Assembly: GCA_017642935.1 (NCBI GenBank)
Contig: JAEPOK010000002.1
Span: forward strand, 248,001 to 312,000
DNA from: Hyphomicrobiales bacterium
GTDB taxonomy: Bacteria; Pseudomonadota; Alphaproteobacteria; Rhizobiales; MH13
Length of the DNA stretch: 64,000 nt
Reading direction: 5' to 3'
Shown one piece after another: positions 48,740-62,622 of this stretch (its first letter is position 1; each line of letters opens with the position of its first letter). The notes below the pieces were generated by a model that was not told where the DNA came from, did not search any database, and saw only the letters and a program-made list of their open reading frames with translations. The position numbers and the translations under genes were made by a program.

Positions 48740-51700
48740 TTGACCGATACGCTCGTCTCGCTGGTGCGGCAACTGGGGCCACGCGACCATCTCCGATTCC
48801 CGGAGCTGGCACGGATCAGTGCGTGCATTGACGGGTACGCGGACGGCGCTCCGCCCTCCTTGGAAACCTTCATCGCGGCCCTTGGTGATCAAGCTGAACA
48901 AGTAACGATCGCCTATGAACGCGATGATGGTAGCTACCAGTATCGGCACTTTGGCGAGCATTTGGCGAGCGATGCCGGGTTCGACATGACCGGTAAGTCG
49001 ACCGCCGATTTCGACACCATTACACGCCATCACATCGAAGCCAGCTTCCAAGCGACCAAAGAGAGCGGTGTCGCTTTAAGCACCATCATGGAGGCGGCCC
49101 CCGGTTCGCTGGTGAACAGTTGGCAGCGCGTCGTTTTCCCCGTCGAACTCGACAGCGGTCAGCACATGCTCACTATGGTCAAGCCGCTCTTCAAAGCACT
49201 GGACGCTATCCATGCGCGCCGCGATGACGTGGCGGTGTGCGTGGTGCCGCTGCGCGCATCGGCCGACGAACGCGCCTACTCGTTGGCGACCACTGAGCCA
49301 CTTGAACGCTATCTCGGCGCCATCGACCTCTCGCCGATCGAGGCCTTTGTCACAGGCGTCGACATGCCGGCAGAAACGCCTGCTGTCGGCACACTGATTG
49401 CCACTCAGTCGCTTGAACTGACCGATGCAAAGAGTCATCCGCTGGCGCTCGTGCTCGACATGGTGCACGGGTTTACGACACCGTTCCTGGTGGTTCTGAA
49501 CGCGACGGGGGCGACGCAGACCAACGATCAGCTTCGCTCCACCACCCATCTGCTGAAGGCCAGTTTCGAGCTCGGCCGGCTTGGTTCGTGGATCAACTCT
49601 GGGCGCGAAGACGGCCGGTTCCGGATCGCCCAGGAACTGGCAACCATGATGGGCGTGACCATCGATCGTGATGGGCTTGTCGACCTGGAAGAGTTGCGCG
49701 CGCTCTACGACGATGATTTGCGCGAGGCGACACAGAAAGCGGTCGAAGATTGCTGGGAGAACGGCACCAGCTATGTGCTTGAAGGCGGGATGACCCGCAC
49801 AGATGGCGAGAAGATCCAGGTGCGCATCTCCGGCAGCCCGATGCGCGACGAGGCCGGTCGCATCATCAGCCTGTTCGGCTTGGTTCAGGACATCACAGCC
49901 GAACAGGCGGCGCGTGACCAGTTGCGCGAAAGCGAGGAACGTTTTCGCGATTTTGCTGCATCGGCCGGCGACTGGTGCTGGGAAACCGACGAGAAACATC
50001 GGTTTGTAGATTTCACCCAAAGCATTGATCCGGCGAGCCGTGAACTACAGGCGAAATATGTCGGCAAGACGCGTCTTGATTTCCGCGTCGTCGAAGAAGA
50101 CCGGCACATCATCGAGGCCCATTTCGAGGATCTGGAAGCGCGCCGCGAGTTTAGCGACTTGGTCTATCGGATTCACTCCGAAGCCAATGACGACCAGATC
50201 TATACGCTGCAAATCTCCGGCAAGCCCCGCTTCGACGATGACGGCACCTTCCTTGGCTATCGCGGTACGGCCCGCAACATCACCGACAAGGTCGAGGTCG
50301 AGCACGAAAACCGAGAAAACCAGCTGGCGCTGAAAACCGCGCAGTCGATCGCCAAGCTTGGGCACTGGATCACCGACATGAACAGTCGGACGACACGTTG
50401 GTCGGACGGGCTGATCGCCCTACTCGGGTTTCACACCGATCCAGCCAAGGCTGAGCAGGAGGCATCAGTCAACGCAGACATTGACCCTAACCAGTTTCAG
50501 ATGCCGTCCTGGCGTGAGCTCCTGTCGCGCATTCACCGCGACGACCGCACCGCCTTTAACGCCTGCCTACGTCGCGCCGCCGATGGCGAACGGGTCGAGC
50601 CGCTTGATATTCGCTACTTCCTGCCGGAAGCCCGTTCAGCCCGCCATTTTCGCATCATGATGCGCTTGAAAGAGGCGACCTCCAGCCACGGACCGCAATT
50701 GATGGGCGTGGCGCAGGACATCAGCACGCTCAAGCGCGCCCAGGAGGAACTGGAAAAGCGCAGTGCCACCCTCTCCGAAGCCCAAGAGATGGGCGGCATC
50801 GGCGATTGGCAGTTTGAGCTCGCAACCGGAAAGGTGACTTGGTCGAAGCACCTCTACACTATATTAGGTCTTGATCCGGAACAGTTCATTCCGACGCCAA
50901 AAGCCATTTTCTCGCTGTGTGGACCGGAGGACTGCGAGGCTATACGCGCTGAACACAGCGCTGCCTTGGAAGGCAAACCGTCCTCCAGCATCGATGTGCA
51001 AGCGCGACGCGGTGACGGCACGTTCGGCTACTATACGATGATGTCCAAACCGCTTTTCGACGAACATGGCGCGATCAGCGGCCTGTTCGGCACGGTGCAG
51101 GACATCACCGACCGCAAGCATTCTGAAAAACAGCTGCGTAACCTTGCCTTTTTCGATCCGCTCACCGGCCTTGCCAATCGCGCGCTGTTCTCGCGCGAGT
51201 TGCGCGATGTGATGTTCGGTGTGCAGGCCAAAGGCGGGTCTGCGGCGCTGTTTTTGCTCGACCTTGATCACTTCAAAGAGGTCAACGACACGCTCGGCCA
51301 TGCCGCCGGCGATGAGCTTTTGCGCACCGTTGCCCGCATCTTGAAAGAGCATGTCGACGATCGTGGTTTTGTTGCCCGCTTGGGTGGCGATGAGTTTGCC
51401 GTCATCATTCGCAATTATCGCAGCTATGATTGCCTCAATCGCTTTGCCAACAGCATCGTCGACCGGTTGATGGGCGTTCTGAAGCTGGAGCGTGGCGAGG
51501 TGCTGACCGGCACGAGCCTTGGCATCGCGCTGATCCCCCAGGATGGTGGCGATGCGGAAGCTGCCCTGCGCAATGCCGATTTGGCGCTCTACATGGCCAA
51601 GGATGAGGGCCGGGGCAAAGCGCTGTTCTTCACACCCAATATGAGCCATTCGGTTCAGGCGCGCCTCAACCTTGCTCGCGATCTGCGTTTGGCGATCGAG

Positions 51701-52495
51701 AATGATGATCTGGAAACGCGTTACCAAGGGCAAATTCATCTGACGACCGGCAAGGTGGTTGGGTTTGAGACCTTGGTGCGTTGGAAACATCCGGTGCGCG
51801 GCTACATCTCACCAGCCGAATTCATTCCTGTGGCCGAAAGTTCGAGCCTCATTTGCGATATCGGGCTTTGGGTGCTGCGCGATGCCTGCCGCACCGGCAA
51901 GGCATGGCTCGACGCCGGGGAGCCCGAGCGGATGATTTCGGTGAACGTTTCAGCCGCCCAAATCTGGCAGTCGGACTTTGAAGATGACGTCATCGCAATC
52001 ATCGAAGAGACCGGTTACCCGCCACGGCTGCTTTGCCTGGAGCTGACCGAAAGTGTGTTCGCCGACCATGGCGAAGGACGGGTGCGCAAAGCCCTGGCCC
52101 GCTTTAAAGAAGCTGGCATTCGACTTGCCGTTGATGACTTTGGCACCGGTTATTCCTCGCTGGGCTATCTCAACGACCTACCCTTTGATGAGCTGAAAAT
52201 CGATCGCTGCTTCGTTGCCGGCGTGCATCAAGCGCCGGAAAAAGCACGGCTCCTGCAAGGCATCATCGCGCTTGGTCGCGGCCTTGGCATGAGCGTAATC
52301 GGCGAAGGCGCTGAGGAGGATGGCGAGATCGCGATGCTGCGCGCCTATGGCTGCGACCTGGTGCAGGGCTTTGCCTATATGCGCCCTGAAACCGCCGAGG
52401 AAGCGTTGGGCTGTGCCGAGCAGTTGGAGTTCCGCCTCGCCGAAGCTGCCAACCAGCTAACGGTTGTGGGCGAACCGCTCAAACAAACGGGTTGA
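48740..52495 (+). CDS. multi-PAS GGDEF-EAL c-di-GMP protein
   Basis: 1251 residues. The start is a TTG at 48740 close after GGAGG. The N-terminal 260 residues include a PAS-like segment (YQYRHFGEHLASDAG). About four further PAS/PAC units follow, ending at GLVQDITAEQ, GTARNITDKV, GVAQDISTLKRAQ and GTVQDITDRKH. The GGDEF domain (RLGGDEF near residue 881) lacks the RxxD I-site. The EAL domain reads ETL but keeps catalytic residues (VNVSAA, LELTES, VDDFGTGYSS, LKIDRC, GEGAEE, VQGFAY), so phosphodiesterase activity is likely. No membrane helix is visible. The 3' end overlaps the convergent kinase gene by 39 bases. Confidence 0.9.
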   Translation: MTDTLVSLVRQLGPRDHLRFPELARISACIDGYADGAPPSLETFIAALGDQAEQVTIAYERDDGSYQYRHFGEHLASDAGFDMTGKSTADFDTITRHHIEASFQATKESGVALSTIMEAAPGSLVNSWQRVVFPVELDSGQHMLTMVKPLFKALDAIHARRDDVAVCVVPLRASADERAYSLATTEPLERYLGAIDLSPIEAFVTGVDMPAETPAVGTLIATQSLELTDAKSHPLALVLDMVHGFTTPFLVVLNATGATQTNDQLRSTTHLLKASFELGRLGSWINSGREDGRFRIAQELATMMGVTIDRDGLVDLEELRALYDDDLREATQKAVEDCWENGTSYVLEGGMTRTDGEKIQVRISGSPMRDEAGRIISLFGLVQDITAEQAARDQLRESEERFRDFAASAGDWCWETDEKHRFVDFTQSIDPASRELQAKYVGKTRLDFRVVEEDRHIIEAHFEDLEARREFSDLVYRIHSEANDDQIYTLQISGKPRFDDDGTFLGYRGTARNITDKVEVEHENRENQLALKTAQSIAKLGHWITDMNSRTTRWSDGLIALLGFHTDPAKAEQEASVNADIDPNQFQMPSWRELLSRIHRDDRTAFNACLRRAADGERVEPLDIRYFLPEARSARHFRIMMRLKEATSSHGPQLMGVAQDISTLKRAQEELEKRSATLSEAQEMGGIGDWQFELATGKVTWSKHLYTILGLDPEQFIPTPKAIFSLCGPEDCEAIRAEHSAALEGKPSSSIDVQARRGDGTFGYYTMMSKPLFDEHGAISGLFGTVQDITDRKHSEKQLRNLAFFDPLTGLANRALFSRELRDVMFGVQAKGGSAALFLLDLDHFKEVNDTLGHAAGDELLRTVARILKEHVDDRGFVARLGGDEFAVIIRNYRSYDCLNRFANSIVDRLMGVLKLERGEVLTGTSLGIALIPQDGGDAEAALRNADLALYMAKDEGRGKALFFTPNMSHSVQARLNLARDLRLAIENDDLETRYQGQIHLTTGKVVGFETLVRWKHPVRGYISPAEFIPVAESSSLICDIGLWVLRDACRTGKAWLDAGEPERMISVNVSAAQIWQSDFEDDVIAIIEETGYPPRLLCLELTESVFADHGEGRVRKALARFKEAGIRLAVDDFGTGYSSLGYLNDLPFDELKIDRCFVAGVHQAPEKARLLQGIIALGRGLGMSVIGEGAEEDGEIAMLRAYGCDLVQGFAYMRPETAEEALGCAEQLEFRLAEAANQLTVVGEPLKQTG

Positions 52496-56386: not shown

Positions 56387-57319
56387 CTAATAAAGGTGCG
56401 GCCAAAGAAAGAACCATCCGGTGACGGTGGCCGCCGATAGTACGGTGCCGACCGTCACGCTTTGCGCCATCAAAGGCGCGTTGCCGCCAAGCTGTCGAGC
56501 AAGGATGTAGGACGATGTCGCGCCCGGCACGATCGTGGCGAGAAGCCCCAGCGCGGTCAGTTCACGCGGCAAGCTGACAGCGAAAGCAAATGACAAGAAG
56601 AGCGCCGGCATCAGCAGAAGCTTAATCACGCTCGACGTGGCGATGGCGAACACCGATCCTTTGCCGGAGATGGGGCGCAGCCCCGCACCAACGGCAAACA
56701 AGCCCATGGCGATCGCGGCGGTGCTGAACCAACCAAAAGCGGTGTCCACAGGCCCCGGCCAATCGATCTGCAACGGGTTGATCGCCAGGCCAGCAGCGCA
56801 GGCCAGGATCAGCGGATTTGTCGCCAGCGCCTTAACCAAGGACGGCGCCTCGACGCCCTCTTCCGGAGCCCCATAGCGCGCAAGAATCGACACACAAAGA
56901 ATGTTGATGGTGATGATCATCAGCGCCATCGGCACGGTGATGTTCTGCACGCCTTCAGCGCCATAGACCGCAAAAGCGAGCGCCAGGACGATGTAGCTGT
57001 TGAAGCGCACCGCGCCTTGAAACCCGCTGGTCGCCGACGGACCATCCAGACGCGAGCGCGTGTAGAAGATCCAGGCCAGGATCCCAACGGTCAGGTGCGT
57101 GCCGGCGAGCAGCAGCGCCAGTGTCCAAACCGAGGGATTATCGAAGCTCGCGGTTGAAAGGTTAGAGAACAGGAGTGTCGGGAAGAACACCACATAGGTG
57201 ACGCGCTCAACGCCCGCGACATGAGCGTCGCTCACCAATCCAACCCGCCGAATGAGGAAGGCGAGGGCGATGACCAAGATGACAGGAAGGAGGGCCGAAC
57301 CGACCACGGCAGGTGACAT
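56387..57319 (-). CDS. AEC family transporter
   Basis: 310 residues with about ten hydrophobic segments in two halves, matching the auxin-efflux-carrier-like (AEC) family: ALLPVILVIALAFLIRRVGL at the start, GFQGAVRFNSYIVLALAFAVYG in the first half, and VPGATSSYILARQLGG-type crossing region in the second. Bacterial members move dicarboxylates or amino acids. No substrate can be assigned. It is 112 bases from the divergent GT-C gene. Confidence 0.9.
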   Translation of the reverse strand: MSPAVVGSALLPVILVIALAFLIRRVGLVSDAHVAGVERVTYVVFFPTLLFSNLSTASFDNPSVWTLALLLAGTHLTVGILAWIFYTRSRLDGPSATSGFQGAVRFNSYIVLALAFAVYGAEGVQNITVPMALMIITINILCVSILARYGAPEEGVEAPSLVKALATNPLILACAAGLAINPLQIDWPGPVDTAFGWFSTAAIAMGLFAVGAGLRPISGKGSVFAIATSSVIKLLLMPALFLSFAFAVSLPRELTALGLLATIVPGATSSYILARQLGGNAPLMAQSVTVGTVLSAATVTGWFFLWPHLY

Positions 57320-57431: not shown

Positions 57432-58691
57432 ATGCTTGGCACGCGCACACCTTTTCAATGGGTCATGCTGGCCTTAGCCCTATTGCTCGGGCTGGCGCTG
57501 GTCGCGGTTCTTGGCTTTCGCACGCTCACCGAGGCAAGCGGCACCAACTCCTATGCTCTGATCGCTGAAAGCTTTCTGACCGGCACACCCTGGGCCTCGG
57601 CCTGTTTCGACATTGACTGCGCCCAGTTCAAAGGCCGCACCTATATCGTCTTCCCACCCTTTCCGGGTGTCATGGCGATGCCGCTGGTGGCGCTCAATGG
57701 GATTGAAACGACCGGCTTTATGCTGATCGGACTGGCAGGGCTTATCCTCTCATTGTTCTTATGGAAGCGCATCTTCGATGCCTTCGAGATGGAAGGTGAG
57801 GTGCAAATCTGGCTGTTGATCGCGCTCGCCTTTGCCAGCCCGCTTTTCTATGTCGGCCTGCGTGCCGACGGCGTGTGGTTTTTCGCACAGATTGTCGGGT
57901 TTCCGCTGCTAACGCTGGCGCTGCACGAGGCGATCTATGGCCGGCTAGTGACCGCTGGAATCGCGCTCGGATGCGCCCTGCTTTGCCGGCAGATGTCGGT
58001 GTTTTACGCCCCGCTCCTGCTTTTGATCGCAATTGGGCCGTCGGCGCCTCTCTTTCGCATGGACTGGTACGATGTGCGCGAGCGGTTCGGCTGGGTTCTG
58101 CAGATTGGGATTCCTGTTGCCATCGGCCTCGCCGGCTACTTTGCCTACAATTATTGGCGGTTCGGCGATCCGTTGGAGACCGGCTACAGTTTCATCTTTT
58201 ACGATTTTGCGCCCGATCCGGAGACCGGCGAGACGCCTGTGTTGACAGCGCGCGTGCGCGACCATGGGGTCTGGTCGTCGGCCTATGTGCTTTACAATGC
58301 GGCCTATCTGCTGGTGCAGGGCTTCGACATCACCTTCGACGCCGCCAAGAAGCTCAACATCACCGGGCTCGACAATGGCGGGACAAGCGTTTTTGCCGCC
58401 AGCCCTTGGCTGTTGTTCCTGGCCTTCACGCCATGGCGGCGACTGGCCCTGTTCTGCCTGCTGATTATCGCCGGGTTTGCGACGATGCTGCTCTTCTACC
58501 ACTCCAACGGGTTCACCCAGTACAACACGCAGCGTTACATCTTGGATTGGCTGCCAGCGGCGTTGCTGATGCTGGCGTTGGCAAAAGACAAGCTTGCCGA
58601 ACACAAGGATGTTCTGGCGCTGTTGGTGCTCTGGGGTATGGCGCTCAATGTGGTGACCGTTACCGTACTCGCGCTGACCGTCGGCGCCTAA
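57432..58691 (+). CDS. polytopic membrane protein, GT-C glycosyltransferase-like
   Basis: 419 residues starting after GGGGA. About ten hydrophobic segments are visible. The first large extracytoplasmic loop carries an acidic motif, ACFDIDCAQFKGRTYIVFPP, which resembles the catalytic DD/DE loop of GT-C enzymes (PMT, ArnT, EmbC-like) that use polyprenyl-phosphate sugars. I cannot name a family with certainty. It ends 11 bases from the convergent gtrA, which with the HAD-UbiA gene suggests they make and use the same lipid-linked sugar. Confidence 0.68.
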   Translation: MLGTRTPFQWVMLALALLLGLALVAVLGFRTLTEASGTNSYALIAESFLTGTPWASACFDIDCAQFKGRTYIVFPPFPGVMAMPLVALNGIETTGFMLIGLAGLILSLFLWKRIFDAFEMEGEVQIWLLIALAFASPLFYVGLRADGVWFFAQIVGFPLLTLALHEAIYGRLVTAGIALGCALLCRQMSVFYAPLLLLIAIGPSAPLFRMDWYDVRERFGWVLQIGIPVAIGLAGYFAYNYWRFGDPLETGYSFIFYDFAPDPETGETPVLTARVRDHGVWSSAYVLYNAAYLLVQGFDITFDAAKKLNITGLDNGGTSVFAASPWLLFLAFTPWRRLALFCLLIIAGFATMLLFYHSNGFTQYNTQRYILDWLPAALLMLALAKDKLAEHKDVLALLVLWGMALNVVTVTVLALTVGA

Positions 58692-58702
58692 CCAATCAGC
58701 CT

Positions 58703-59128
58703 TTACGTGCGCTGCGCTTTGGCGAATGTGATGCGGCTGTGGCCAAGATAGTTGGCGACGGCGCCGACCGCGATGGCAGTGCCATGGGCAAATGCTTCCA
58801 CATAGGCTGAAGGGCCAAAAATCCCGGCGCCAAGGCGTTCAAGGCCCATCGCCGTGCCCAAAACAACGCCTGCGCCTACAGCATTGACCAGCAGGAACGC
58901 AGGCACCTGCGCCTTCCAGTCCATGTGCTGACCCGGCCAAACTAGATGACGGTAGAGCAGGAAGCCTGCGGTCATGCCGATGGCGTACGCAACGATGATT
59001 GCCGGCTCAAAAGGCATGACGAACGACAGCCCAATACGCGCGAACCAATTGATGGCGGCGGCCGTGCCGCCGCAGAGCAGAAACCGGACAATGGCAGACG
59101 ACTGGATGAGATGCGTCAGGCGATCCAC
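58703..59128 (-). CDS. GtrA family membrane protein
   Basis: 141 residues with four membrane helices. The GtrA pattern is clear: IVRFLLCGGTAAAINWFARI, IIVAYAIGMTAGFLLYRHLVW, and the C-terminal GAVANYLGHSRITFA. GtrA proteins are thought to help polyprenyl-phosphate sugars cross or be used at the membrane. The GTG start at 59128 overlaps the end of the HAD-UbiA gene by 13 bases, so the two are translationally coupled. A longer upstream frame exists but lies within that gene. Confidence 0.88.
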   Translation of the reverse strand: MDRLTHLIQSSAIVRFLLCGGTAAAINWFARIGLSFVMPFEPAIIVAYAIGMTAGFLLYRHLVWPGQHMDWKAQVPAFLLVNAVGAGVVLGTAMGLERLGAGIFGPSAYVEAFAHGTAIAVGAVANYLGHSRITFAKAQRT

Positions 59129-60654
59129 GGCAGCGCCTCCAGTGCGAACCCGCCAAAGATCGCGCCGCCAAAGGCGAGGCCGAGCATCAGGCCAAGGGCG
59201 AGGCTTGCCTTGTCGTTGAGGGCAAAAGCGACAGGATCGTCGTCCAGCTCGCCGCGCTGGGACACCAACCAGATGCGCCCGAGCCAGAGAAAGAGCAGGA
59301 TCGGCGTTGCCCACAAAAAGCCCGGCGCGGTGTACATGGCCGCGTGGAAGGCTTCTGCGGTGAGGTAAAGCGAGAAAAGCACGACGGCCGACATGGCCGC
59401 CGCCAGACCGAGCGCGAGAAGCATAGGCTCGTCGCGGGCAATGTAACCACGACCAGCCGTTTTGGTCTTACCGTGCAGCGCCATGCGCACCACTTCGGTA
59501 TGACGCTTGGCGGTGGACAGTGATAAAAAGAGTGCCATGGAAAACACAAACAGCCAGGGCGAAATGACCGCGCCGATGGCAACAACGCCGAGAAACAGGC
59601 GAAGCGTGAACAGGGTCGCAAGGACCGCGACATCGAGGATCGGCACGCGTTTGACATGGAATGAGTAGGCCAGTGTGATCGCCGTATAGAGCGTGACCGT
59701 GGCGAAGACTGCCCAGCCCGCGGCAGCGGCAAGCGCGAACCCGGCTAGGGCAAGGACCGGCACAAGCATCAATCCTTCCCCAATGGGCAGAGCGCCTGAG
59801 GCAAGCGGACGGTTTCTTTTGGTCCAGTGACGTCGGTCGTCAGCCAGATCGAACAGATCGTTGAGCAGATAGGTCGCTGAGGCCACAAAGCCGAGGCCGA
59901 AAAAAGCAAACAGAGCGTCACGCCATGCCGCCAAATCGGTAGCCATGCCAGCTAAGAAAAGCGGAATGAAGATAAGGGCATTTTTCGCCCACTGCTTCAC
60001 GCGCGCGGCCTTGATGAGCACACGGGCGGGATGCTTGGCGTCGTTGAGGAGCAACATGGGCTTGCCAAGCTGTGCTAAGGCCTTTGCGGTCTTCGGCTGC
60101 AAATTGACGCCTACGGCGCTTTGCGCGCGCGCCCAGACGACAAGATCGGCCTTGCTGTCGCCAGCATAGATGAAGCCTTGCGGGAACCGTTCGGCGAGGC
60201 GTTCAGCTTTTGAGGCACCCTTCAGGTTCTTGGTTCCATCGGAGGCGAAGACCTCGCCAATGAAGGCGAAGCGTTTGGCGACGCGTCGCGCCATCAACTC
60301 GTCCGACGCCGTCGCCAACACCACGCGGCGGCCACGGCGCGCCTCGCGTTCGGCCAACTCGACCACGCCATCGTGGGCCGGAATGGCATCCAGATCGTCG
60401 GGCGCATAGGGCGCAAGCTTTTGCTTCAGATAGGCTTTGCCGCGCGCCAGCCAGAGAATGGCTTGGAACAGGATAAACGGGTTACGGCGCAGCGCCGCCA
60501 CAAAACACTCCACCAAGAGGTCGGAGCGCAAGAGCGTCTGGTCAAGATCAAGCACAAGCGGCTGATCGAGCGGCGCATTGTGCACCGAGCGACCATCATG
60601 CAGCGGGTCGTTGGCGGCCGCAGGGCGCAAAGATACGCTTTCAAGGGTGACCAT
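59116..60654 (-). CDS. HAD phosphatase-UbiA prenyltransferase fusion (decaprenyl-P phosphoribosyltransferase type)
   Basis: 512 residues from the ATG at 60654, after AGGA. The N-terminal 200 residues are a HAD hydrolase (VLDLDQTLLRSDLL with the DxDxT nucleophile; ATASDELMARRVA; GDSKADLVVWA). The rest is a UbiA-type integral enzyme with eight or nine helices. Its first Asp motif, NDLFDLADDRRHWTKRNRP, has the NDxxDxxxDRxHxxKRxRP form specific to decaprenyl-phosphate phosphoribosyltransferases such as mycobacterial Rv3806c and rhizobial NoeC. That enzyme joins PRPP to a polyprenyl phosphate; the HAD part would remove the 5-phosphate. It overlaps gtrA. Confidence 0.88.
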   Translation of the reverse strand: MVTLESVSLRPAAANDPLHDGRSVHNAPLDQPLVLDLDQTLLRSDLLVECFVAALRRNPFILFQAILWLARGKAYLKQKLAPYAPDDLDAIPAHDGVVELAEREARRGRRVVLATASDELMARRVAKRFAFIGEVFASDGTKNLKGASKAERLAERFPQGFIYAGDSKADLVVWARAQSAVGVNLQPKTAKALAQLGKPMLLLNDAKHPARVLIKAARVKQWAKNALIFIPLFLAGMATDLAAWRDALFAFFGLGFVASATYLLNDLFDLADDRRHWTKRNRPLASGALPIGEGLMLVPVLALAGFALAAAAGWAVFATVTLYTAITLAYSFHVKRVPILDVAVLATLFTLRLFLGVVAIGAVISPWLFVFSMALFLSLSTAKRHTEVVRMALHGKTKTAGRGYIARDEPMLLALGLAAAMSAVVLFSLYLTAEAFHAAMYTAPGFLWATPILLFLWLGRIWLVSQRGELDDDPVAFALNDKASLALGLMLGLAFGGAIFGGFALEALPWIA

Positions 60655-60957
60655 TGTGATCCTGTCCCGGTCAGAAAAACCTAGCGGCACCCTGCCACGC
60701 GACACCCCAGCATTTGCCTGACAGGCAGCGTTAAGATCGCCCTAATCCGAGCTAGGGTTTCCGGTCGGTTTCCAGCTTCCTTCAAATGCGAGAGATCGGA
60801 CTCAATCAGGTTCGACGAAAGACGTAGGTTAAGTTTCCGGAAGCGCTACCGAAACTCTTTGACAGTCGTACCTGCTTGCCGCAGGTTCGCCTTCTGCGCC
60901 GGGCTGGCATGACCTTTCAGCCCGCACGACTTGCTTCTCTTCGGATTGGAATCGCCG
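60655..60957. other. promoter region between HAD-UbiA and aglA genes
   Basis: A 303-bp gap without a gene. It contains a LacI-type operator at 60834-60855, a TTGACA at 60859-60864 that could be a -35 element (no good -10 seen), and a 6-bp inverted repeat ACCTGC-TTGCC-GCAGGT at 60870-60886. All point rightwards to aglA. I saw nothing else. Confidence 0.55.
60834..60855 (+). promoter_or_regulatory. LacI-family operator candidate for aglA
   Basis: A palindrome centred on AGCGCT (60842-60847), with flanks TTTCCGGA and ACCGAAAC that are symmetric at five of eight positions. The central CG and 20-22 bp size are typical of LacI/GalR sites. It lies just upstream of a TTGACA, well placed to block aglA transcription. 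Confidence 0.6.
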
Positions 60958-62622
60958 ATGTTCGTTTCACCCCTTTCCTCCAGCGTGCACACCCGTCGCC
61001 AGCTTGGCGGCGACCCGGATTGGTGGCGCGGCGGCGTGATCTATCAGATCTATCCGCGCTCGTATTTGGACGTGAACGCGGACGGCATTGGCGATCTGTC
61101 CGGCATCACCTCACGGCTCGACTACATCAAGAGCCTGAACGTCGATGCGATCTGGATTTCGCCGTTCTTCGTCTCGCCAATGGATGATTACGGCTACGAT
61201 GTTGCCGACTACAAGAATGTCGATCCAATGTTCGGCTCGCTTGAGGATTTCGACGCTCTTCTGCAAGCTGCACATGACCGCGACATTCGCGTGCTCATCG
61301 ATCTGGTGATTTCGCACACCTCCGATCGTCATCCCTGGTTCCGCGAAAGCCGGGTGGATCGCAGCAACGCCAAAGCCGATTGGTATGTCTGGGCCGACCC
61401 GAAACCGGACGGCACACCGCCGAACAATTGGCTGTCGATTTTTGGCGGCTCGGCCTGGGAGTGGGACTCACGGCGCCGGCAATATTACTTGCACAATTTC
61501 CTGACCTCGCAGCCAGACCTCAACTTCCACAATCCCATCGTCCAGGAAGCGGTGCTCGACGCGGCCCGCTTCTGGCTGGAGCGTGGCGTGGACGGCTTCC
61601 GTCTCGACACGGTGAACATGTACTTCCATGACGCGGAGCTGCGCGACAATCCGCCCGTCGAAGAGGGGATGAAGGTCAACGGCATCCCGGAGCAGAACCC
61701 CTACGGTTTGCAGCAACCGATCTACAACATCACCCGGCCGGACAATCTGGTTTTCCTGGAAAAGATGCGCACGCTGCTGGACGAGTATCCAGCGACGACG
61801 ACCGTCGGTGAAGTGGGCGCCGTGCTCGACATGTACGACACGCTGGCCGACTACACCGAGCAGGGCAAGCGCCTGCACATGGCCTACTCGTTCGATTTTC
61901 TGGATCGCCAGTTCTCAGCGGATTTCATCCGCCAGGTTGCCCAGCGCATGGAGAGCAACCGCAACAGCTGGCCGAGCTGGGCCTTCTCCAACCATGACGT
62001 CGAACGGGTGCTTAGTCGTTGGCAGCTTGGCCATGAGCAGGATCGGGCCGCGCCGCTGCTGATCGCGCTGCTGACCTCGCTTAAAGGCACGCCCTGCATC
62101 TATCAGGGTGAGGAGCTTGGTCTGACCGAGGCGATCGTGCCGTTCGAGAAACTGCAGGACCCCTACGGCATCCGCTTCTGGCCGGAGTTCAAGGGCCGCG
62201 ACGGCTGCCGCACGCCGATGCCATGGAACCCCGCCGCGTCGAATGGCGGCTTTACAGAAGGCACGCCGTGGCTGCCGGTGCCGCCGGAGCATGTCGCGCG
62301 CGCCGTTTCAGTGCAGGAGGCCGATGATCGGATGCCGCTGCGCCATGTGCGCCGGTTCCTGGGCTGGCGCCGCGAACAGATGGCGCTGCTGCGCGGTTCG
62401 ATGACGTTCCATGACACGCAAGGCGACGTCCTGGCCTTTACCCGCGACTATGAGGGCGAGCGCATCTTGTGCGTGTTCAATCTCGGCACGGCGCCTGGCA
62501 GCTTTGCCACCGGCGGCTTCGGCCCGATCAGCCCGATTGGCGGGCACGGCTTTGGCGGAAAGCTCGACGGCATGGGCATCTCGCTTGATCCGCTGGACGC
62601 GTTCTTCGCCACCTACACCTAA
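60958..62622 (+). CDS. aglA: GH13 alpha-glucosidase, AglA-like
   Basis: 554 residues from the ATG at 60958. It begins directly with the barrel (WWRGGVIYQIYPRSYLDVN). Catalytic residues are the nucleophile Asp in GFRLDTVNM, the acid Glu in TTVGEVGAV and the stabilising Asp in FSNHDVERV. This is the cytosolic oligo-alpha-glucosidase type (GH13 subfamilies 17/23/30 group) found in rhizobial agl operons for sucrose, trehalose or maltose use. The AglEFGK transporter genes are not adjacent. The upstream operator suggests LacI-type control. An in-frame ATG/TTG nine codons earlier is possible. Confidence 0.93.
   Translation: MFVSPLSSSVHTRRQLGGDPDWWRGGVIYQIYPRSYLDVNADGIGDLSGITSRLDYIKSLNVDAIWISPFFVSPMDDYGYDVADYKNVDPMFGSLEDFDALLQAAHDRDIRVLIDLVISHTSDRHPWFRESRVDRSNAKADWYVWADPKPDGTPPNNWLSIFGGSAWEWDSRRRQYYLHNFLTSQPDLNFHNPIVQEAVLDAARFWLERGVDGFRLDTVNMYFHDAELRDNPPVEEGMKVNGIPEQNPYGLQQPIYNITRPDNLVFLEKMRTLLDEYPATTTVGEVGAVLDMYDTLADYTEQGKRLHMAYSFDFLDRQFSADFIRQVAQRMESNRNSWPSWAFSNHDVERVLSRWQLGHEQDRAAPLLIALLTSLKGTPCIYQGEELGLTEAIVPFEKLQDPYGIRFWPEFKGRDGCRTPMPWNPAASNGGFTEGTPWLPVPPEHVARAVSVQEADDRMPLRHVRRFLGWRREQMALLRGSMTFHDTQGDVLAFTRDYEGERILCVFNLGTAPGSFATGGFGPISPIGGHGFGGKLDGMGISLDPLDAFFATYT

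Follow-up and report, generated by a model that had tools for sequence, protein, structure and literature searches.

The window analysed here is a stretch of 64,000 nucleotides (C2:248001-312000) from the genome of a Hyphomicrobiales bacterium (3.74 Mb, 17 contigs, 98.8% complete). It contains a compact set of three genes: a HAD-UbiA fusion, a GtrA gene that overlaps it, and a gene for a GT-C glycosyltransferase that faces the pair. All three lie where a first-pass annotation of this DNA had placed them. The fusion and GtrA genes overlap by 13 nt, which is operon-like, and the GT-C gene is convergent with the GtrA gene, tail to tail, with 11 bp separating the stop codons. The first-pass annotation took the set for a lipid-linked pentose glycosylation module. 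As a general reading this stands, given the membership of the fusion in PRK08238, the fold of the third protein and the co-occurrence of the trio.

The fusion gene starts with an ATG at 60654, with the purine-rich sequence GGGACAGG just upstream; a longer alternative begins with a GTG at 60705, from which residues are numbered below. Two Pfam domains exceed their cut-offs, PF12710 (HAD, residues 51-188) and PF01040 (UbiA, residues 251-489). The protein scores 583.6 bits (cut-off 351) with the NCBIfam model NF006088/PRK08238, which describes this same two-domain protein. The next-best NCBIfam models are three for DPPR-synthase (DPPRS), at 139.7, 135.7 and 85.5 bits. The cut-offs of these models (207, 234 and 474; PRK12324 is among them) are not reached, making the fusion a relative and not a member. 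The UbiA and haem O synthase models give 22.4 and 22.5 bits. A sequence search of the PDB at E values up to 1 returned three matches, the best two being Rv3806c chains (8j8j, E 3.4e-17). The model scores rule out a quinone or haem prenyltransferase identity for the UbiA half and, together with the PDB result, bear out its earlier assignment as a phosphoribosyltransferase. The signature of the NDxxDxxxDRxHxxKRxRP type that had been claimed for this half is present exactly (NDLFDLADDRRHWTKRNRP).

For comparison across relatives, fusions from 110 loci were reduced to 83 stretches of at least 400 aa and to 76 after merging identical ones. Residues N282, D283, D286, D290, R291, H293, K296, R299, R401, and E404 are invariant in all 76. 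Both the NDxxDxxxD loop and the R..E loop of polyprenyl-phosphate phosphoribosyltransferases are therefore present. The HAD half carries DLDQT at 53-57 (the DxDxT nucleophile motif) and GDSKAD at 182-187 (acidic motif IV), with D53 and D187 each kept in 75 of the 76. ORF15 of Citrobacter youngae has the same HAD-UbiA architecture and, according to the available text of its 2024 description, makes farnesyl-phosphate-ribofuranose from phosphoribosyl pyrophosphate (PRPP) in vitro (PMC11127046). Fusion residues N282, D283, D286, D290, R401, and E404 correspond in order and spacing to ORF15 N247, D248, D251, D255, R366, and E369, residues tested in that work. The first-pass annotation also drew a parallel between the HAD half and mycobacterial Rv3807c. 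The presumed job is the same, but the two are not homologous, Rv3807c being described as unrelated to HAD-family phosphatases (PMC11127046, available text).

The GtrA open frame extends up to 59314, and the GTG at 59128 is the start that agrees with homologues. The protein matches PF04138 over its full length (E 1.7e-11), the sole match to this family in the genome. In the mycobacterial pathway the GtrA counterpart is Rv3789, as named in the first-pass annotation. The Gtr systems of Shigella and Salmonella also combine GtrA with a GT-C protein that uses a lipid-phosphate sugar donor. They differ in how the donor arises: GtrB makes it from UDP-glucose, whereas here a UbiA-type enzyme would make it, presumably from PRPP. 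A Pfam scan found no GtrB-type UDP-sugar:polyprenyl-phosphate transferase among the three cassette genes.

The third protein is less easily placed by sequence. It has no Pfam match, scores 52 bits with the NCBIfam LA3751_2_3 family (below the cut-off of 200), and finds nothing in a PDB sequence search at E values up to 5. Scanning 39 members of its family with Pfam at E values up to 0.1 gave PMT_2 matches in 24 (best 5.6e-7) and GT87 matches in 6. A named Pfam family was rejected, since the window protein itself matches none and its relatives only touch these two. Structure is more telling. An AlphaFold model built on an alignment of 39 relatives has a predicted local distance difference test score (pLDDT) of 91.0 and a predicted template modelling score (pTM) of 0.91, and its best Foldseek match in the PDB is ArnT (5f15, E 9.0e-5, probability 1.00). 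VIA-align gives Z scores of 18.1 for ALG12 and 17.9 for ArnT, with protein mannosyltransferases and oligosaccharyltransferases also matched, followed by AftD (13.9), AftB (13.6), AftA (11.0), EmbB (10.8), and EmbC (10.7); past the last GT-C entry, Z then drops from 9.5 to 3.9. The first-pass description as GT-C-like is thus matched by the comparison with ArnT and EmbC, and the model confidently predicts a GT-C fold. The fold does not reveal the sugar. Polar residues kept in 39 of 39 rows include N39, C58, C63, R144, R186, Q187, R274, H357, N359, R368, Y369, and D372, and E34 is kept in 35 of 37. By eye and with no alignment, R368-Y369 is reminiscent of R349-Y350 of C. youngae ORF12, a pair described as essential or almost essential to activity (PMC11127046, available text).

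Table 1. Genes of the cassette and of its borders in the window.
Feature	Position	Strand	Basis
GT-C glycosyltransferase gene, presumed periplasmic pentofuranosyltransferase, 419 aa	57432..58691	+	ORF (open reading frame), predicted structure, Foldseek, VIA-align
GtrA-family gene, presumed lipid-linked pentose flippase, 141 aa, GTG start	58703..59128	-	PF04138, start fitting homologues
HAD-UbiA fusion (phosphoribose phosphatase-like + polyprenyl-phosphate phosphoribosyltransferase-like)	59116..60654	-	NF006088/PRK08238, Rv3806c match, active-site residues
Left border, outside module: AEC-type membrane transporter gene	56387..57319	-	PF03547, empty sites
Right border, outside module: GH13 alpha-glucosidase-type gene	60931..62622	+	PF00128 E 4.7e-121, empty sites

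Do the three genes belong together? Two collections that overlap partly were used, a sample of 199 genomes of the order and a named collection of 64 loci found through GT-C. Gene choice at the loci followed a home-made heuristic, part of the hidden Markov models (HMMs) were built from the sample itself, and relatives are not independent (L037 and L082 appear to be one contig). In the order sample the fusion exceeds its cut-off in 46 of 199 genomes and GT-C is found in 18. All 18 GT-C genomes, from eight families, carry the fusion (Fisher p 1.7e-13, without kinship correction). The same pattern is seen within the genus, where the window genome and G103 have both fusion and GT-C and G021 and G067 have neither. 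In these last two the site is empty, the matched parts of the AEC transporter and alpha-glucosidase genes lying 226 bp (G021) and 217 bp (G067) apart. Fusion, GtrA and GT-C are gained or lost as one block. Within the stretch covered at the 64 named loci, GT-C is accompanied by fusion and GtrA in 45, by the fusion alone in 4 and by GtrA alone in 2, and so the association goes beyond chance. Fifteen GT-C loci have no fusion nearby, and in 13 of these it is found elsewhere in the genome. Where GT-C and fusion share a locus they lie on opposite strands in 43 of 49 cases and on the same strand in 6. The co-occurrence, the empty sites and the conservation of GT-C beside the pair across Hyphomicrobiales support GtrA and GT-C as working partners of the fusion, as the first-pass annotation had supposed.

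Carrier genera include Methylobacterium, Methylorubrum, Pseudovibrio, Methylopila, Hansschlegelia, Devosia, and Chelatococcus, with others besides. Going by names, all of the 64 loci with a genus in the title presumably belong to Hyphomicrobiales. A near relative in this collection is a Cohaesibacteraceae metagenome-assembled genome (L082; 84% identity in GT-C). A plasmid of Devosia neptuniae (NZ_CP104964.1; L147:5911-9093) carries fusion, GtrA and GT-C one after another. Its GT-C is 40% identical to that of the window and, in this single annotated record examined, bears the label "hypothetical protein". The set can therefore move. A search for phage carriage gave one weak match in 50,697 records (30% identity over 47% of the query). 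Base composition is uninformative on transfer, because cassette and window have nearly the same G+C (0.604 and 0.601). A look for junction repeats at the cassette borders gave short matches only. The sole shared stretch, of 19 bp, is on the right flank and resembles conserved sequence upstream of the alpha-glucosidase gene.

No glycan-synthesis genes were seen adjoining the cassette within the window. Neighbours were also clustered for 62 loci at least 6 kb long, the 28 largest clusters being judged by first residues. Apart from the three genes, no gene family turns up repeatedly next to the cassette in many bacterial families. What does recur are apparent antisense frames of the cassette genes, genes shared within a genus or family, and common transporter parts. 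A tie to a neighbouring glycan locus was rejected on this ground. That no neighbour names an acceptor would fit a modification made after polymerisation, with its genes placed apart from those of the target. Elsewhere in the window (48740-52495) is a large open frame of 1251 aa that by eye resembles a sensor of several domains, GGDEF and EAL among them.

The next question is which pentose is carried. DprE1 yields a 2-keto sugar, which DprE2 would reduce on the way to arabinose, and four models (PF04030, NF053785, NF005489 and NF053786) were used to search for the two enzymes. The window genome has no match to PF04030, the ALO domain of DprE1. Its best NF053785 match covers only residues 7-190 and scores 50 bits, where the DprE1 positives, 26 of the 48 genomes searched, score 297-418. 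There is no clear DprE2 either, the best NF005489 score being 108 bits (cut-off 267) against 244-355 in 17 genomes. With NF053786, the mycobacterial-type DprE2 model, five positives reach 180-206 bits and the window genome 94. Genuine DprE2 proteins of this order also miss the cut-off of 250, so the conclusion is drawn from the score gap and not from the cut-off. A congener that lacks the cassette has a DprE2-like protein at 91 bits with the same model. Without DprE1, no epimerisation to arabinose is expected. The arabinose-like product of the first-pass annotation, which had itself named a genome lacking both enzymes as a refuting outcome, is therefore unsupported in a genome of this completeness, and arabinose was rejected as the leading reading.

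This is not peculiar to the window genome. Among the fusion genomes, GT-C occurs in 14 of the 20 that lack DprE1 and in 4 of the 26 that have it. A DprE1 search covered 50 GT-C genomes, with 14 of the 64 left out, and 43 of the 50 lack the enzyme; DprE2 was sought there in the local stretch only. The tree of the 76 fusions agrees. A branch with full support in the Shimodaira-Hasegawa-like approximate likelihood ratio test (SH-aLRT) splits 19 proteins from 57 that include the one in the window. No locus behind the 19 combines GtrA with this GT-C. The 57 comprise 44 from loci with GtrA and GT-C, 6 with GtrA alone, 1 with GT-C alone and 6 from DprE1 loci. In other words, the branch of the family to which this fusion belongs is mostly without DprE1.

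Relatives with DprE1 are not uniform. Of the 26 such fusion genomes, 17 have a clear DprE2 and nine do not (L039, L040, L041, L045, L054, L060, L064, L071, and L075). All nine of these loci hold a class III aminotransferase with the PLP (pyridoxal phosphate)-lysine motif (931-971 bits), whereas none of 37 other loci reaches 300 bits. Most of the nine also hold an ArnE/ArnF-like small transporter and an NAD-dependent epimerase-like protein. Class III aminotransferases act more often on substrates other than sugar ketones. Possibly the aminotransferase replaces the DprE2 reductase, which would give a lipid-linked 2-amino-2-deoxy-pentofuranose. Two of the nine, from Bauldia (L060 and L064), combine GT-C, DprE1, the aminotransferase, the small transporter and the epimerase-like gene and are without GtrA. 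From this gene content, the GT-C family may accept other donors.

How might the cassette work? By homology to ORF15 and Rv3806c, the UbiA half would move 5-phosphoribose from PRPP to undecaprenyl phosphate. The HAD half would then strip the 5-phosphate. Most simply, the likely product is undecaprenyl-phosphate-D-ribofuranose. GtrA would flip this lipid to the periplasmic face, the weakest of the proposed enzyme steps, and the GT-C protein, judging by fold and linkage, would pass ribofuranose to an acceptor in the periplasm or at the surface, itself the product of other genes. That a lipid-linked pentofuranose of some kind is involved seems to us very probable. That the three genes form a cassette for extracytoplasmic ribofuranosylation, with ribose as the sugar, is the reading we favour, and we hold it as probable. 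A bolder version can be put forward only tentatively, and we would not bet on it as a whole: a mobile, ribose-specific surface-modification cassette across Hyphomicrobiales, with GtrA as a ribofuranosyl-lipid flippase, a GT-C family distinct from GT136 and, as its target, an envelope glycan in which ribofuranose has not previously been described.

Several observations do not fit the ribose cassette comfortably. The literature, too, only proposes GtrA as a flippase (PMC11127046, available text), and one locus of the same family (L038/L093) carries fusion and GT-C with no adjoining GtrA. Neither fusion nor GtrA is found in 13 of the 64 GT-C loci, within the stretch covered. In one relative (G044, locus L066) the matched fusion stretch has two TAG stops, which may reflect decay of the gene there. 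DprE1 is present in 7 of the 50 GT-C genomes searched (three Hoeflea, two Bauldia, one Prosthecomicrobium and one Methylobacterium). Moreover, fusion, GT-C and DprE1 share one locus in the two Bauldia (L060, L064), which shows that GT-C can stand beside arabinose-type chemistry.

What if the sugar is another pentofuranose? Xylofuranose could be made by an ORF13-like epimerase of the short-chain dehydrogenase/reductase (SDR) type, with its gene lying outside the cassette. This too counts against ribose to a degree, as C. youngae O2 is described as making xylofuranose with a single SDR gene, ORF13 (PMC11127046, available text), and the window genome is rich in SDR proteins (49 first-look candidates). 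However, orf13 sits in the same cluster in C. youngae (PMC11127046), whereas the cassette has no epimerase gene and none recurs beside it across families in the 62 loci clustered, with the 28 largest clusters judged by first residues. We consider xylofuranose or a similar sugar improbable. Arabinose itself, with the lipid-ribose epimerised by DprE1/DprE2-type enzymes coded elsewhere and GT-C transferring the result, is given little chance. Related fusions of the order do adjoin both DprE1 and DprE2 in 13 of 46 loci, the seven DprE1-bearing GT-C genomes have to be reckoned with, and donor choice in such enzymes can be loose, ORF12 having used both ribofuranose (Ribf) and xylofuranose (Xylf) donors (PMC11127046, available text). 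Against this stand the missing DprE1, the lack of a clear DprE2, and the many GT-C genomes without DprE1. A third possibility is that the fusion makes lipid-phosphoribose for some other end, such as undecaprenyl phosphate regulation or storage or a small glycolipid, and that GT-C acts elsewhere. Neighbours that name no acceptor and include no glycan-synthesis genes would suit this idea, but the joint gain and loss at the empty sites and the complete co-occurrence tie GT-C to the fusion, and we think it unlikely. Finally, an ordinary quinone or haem prenyltransferase with chance neighbours is hardly credible, for beyond membership in the PF01040 superfamily the model scores speak against it and the genome has three further UbiA-family genes as candidates for those roles.

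The ribose cassette resembles the three-component pentofuranosylation of the C. youngae O1/O2 O antigen, carried out by ORF15, ORF14 and ORF12 (PMC11127046, published 2024, available text). Both have a HAD-UbiA fusion in which domain order and catalytic residues agree, a separate flippase and a GT-C transferase, and both lack DprE1/DprE2 where the sugar is ribose. They differ in three respects. The flippase here is GtrA (PF04138), whereas ORF14 is of the MATE/SMR type. The window GT-C protein has 419 aa and no C-terminal carbohydrate-binding domain, whereas ORF12 has about 652 aa and does have one. Lastly, the cassette stands alone, outside any O-antigen cluster. The mycobacterial arabinan donor pathway shares the phosphoribosyltransferase family (Rv3806c) and the GT-C fold (AftD, AftB, AftA and Emb), but here DprE1/DprE2 are missing, the phosphatase is HAD-type and fused, and there is a single small GT-C. 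ArnT has the same fold (aligned over 326 residues) but only 13% identity, and it transfers 4-amino-4-deoxyarabinose (Ara4N) to lipid A. Arabinosylation of Nod factor in Azorhizobium (noeC/noeH/noeO) and of pilin in Pseudomonas paraeruginosa shares the phosphoribosyl-lipid step and a Gram-negative host, but the available text describes both systems as producing donors of D-arabinose (PMC2443382, PMC12369383). The relation to noeC seen by the first-pass annotation is thus one of wider family, with no closer likeness: noeC shares its operon with noeH and noeO, and the genome paper, as far as its text is available, suggests that these make a D-arabinose precursor (PMC2443382).

How much of this is new? 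The general concept and the activity of this type of fusion are already published (PMC11127046, available text), which limits the surprise. The differences lie in GtrA in place of a MATE/SMR flippase, a shorter GT-C without the carbohydrate-binding domain, and a stand-alone cassette. A literature search did not find this pairing or variant, which is weak evidence as most subscription journals and supplements lay outside its coverage, and a search on GT136 and related terms gave only PMC11127046 on the subject among the matches listed.

This reading separates two branches within an enzyme family, both earlier regarded as arabinose makers, so a fusion found by itself is no safe guide to arabinose. 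The analysis also provides a compact GT-C with identified partner genes and a probable donor, which makes it easy to test in the laboratory. If the ribose cassette is real, plant-, soil- and sponge-associated or marine Alphaproteobacteria would bear a switchable surface pentose tag that annotation has hidden.

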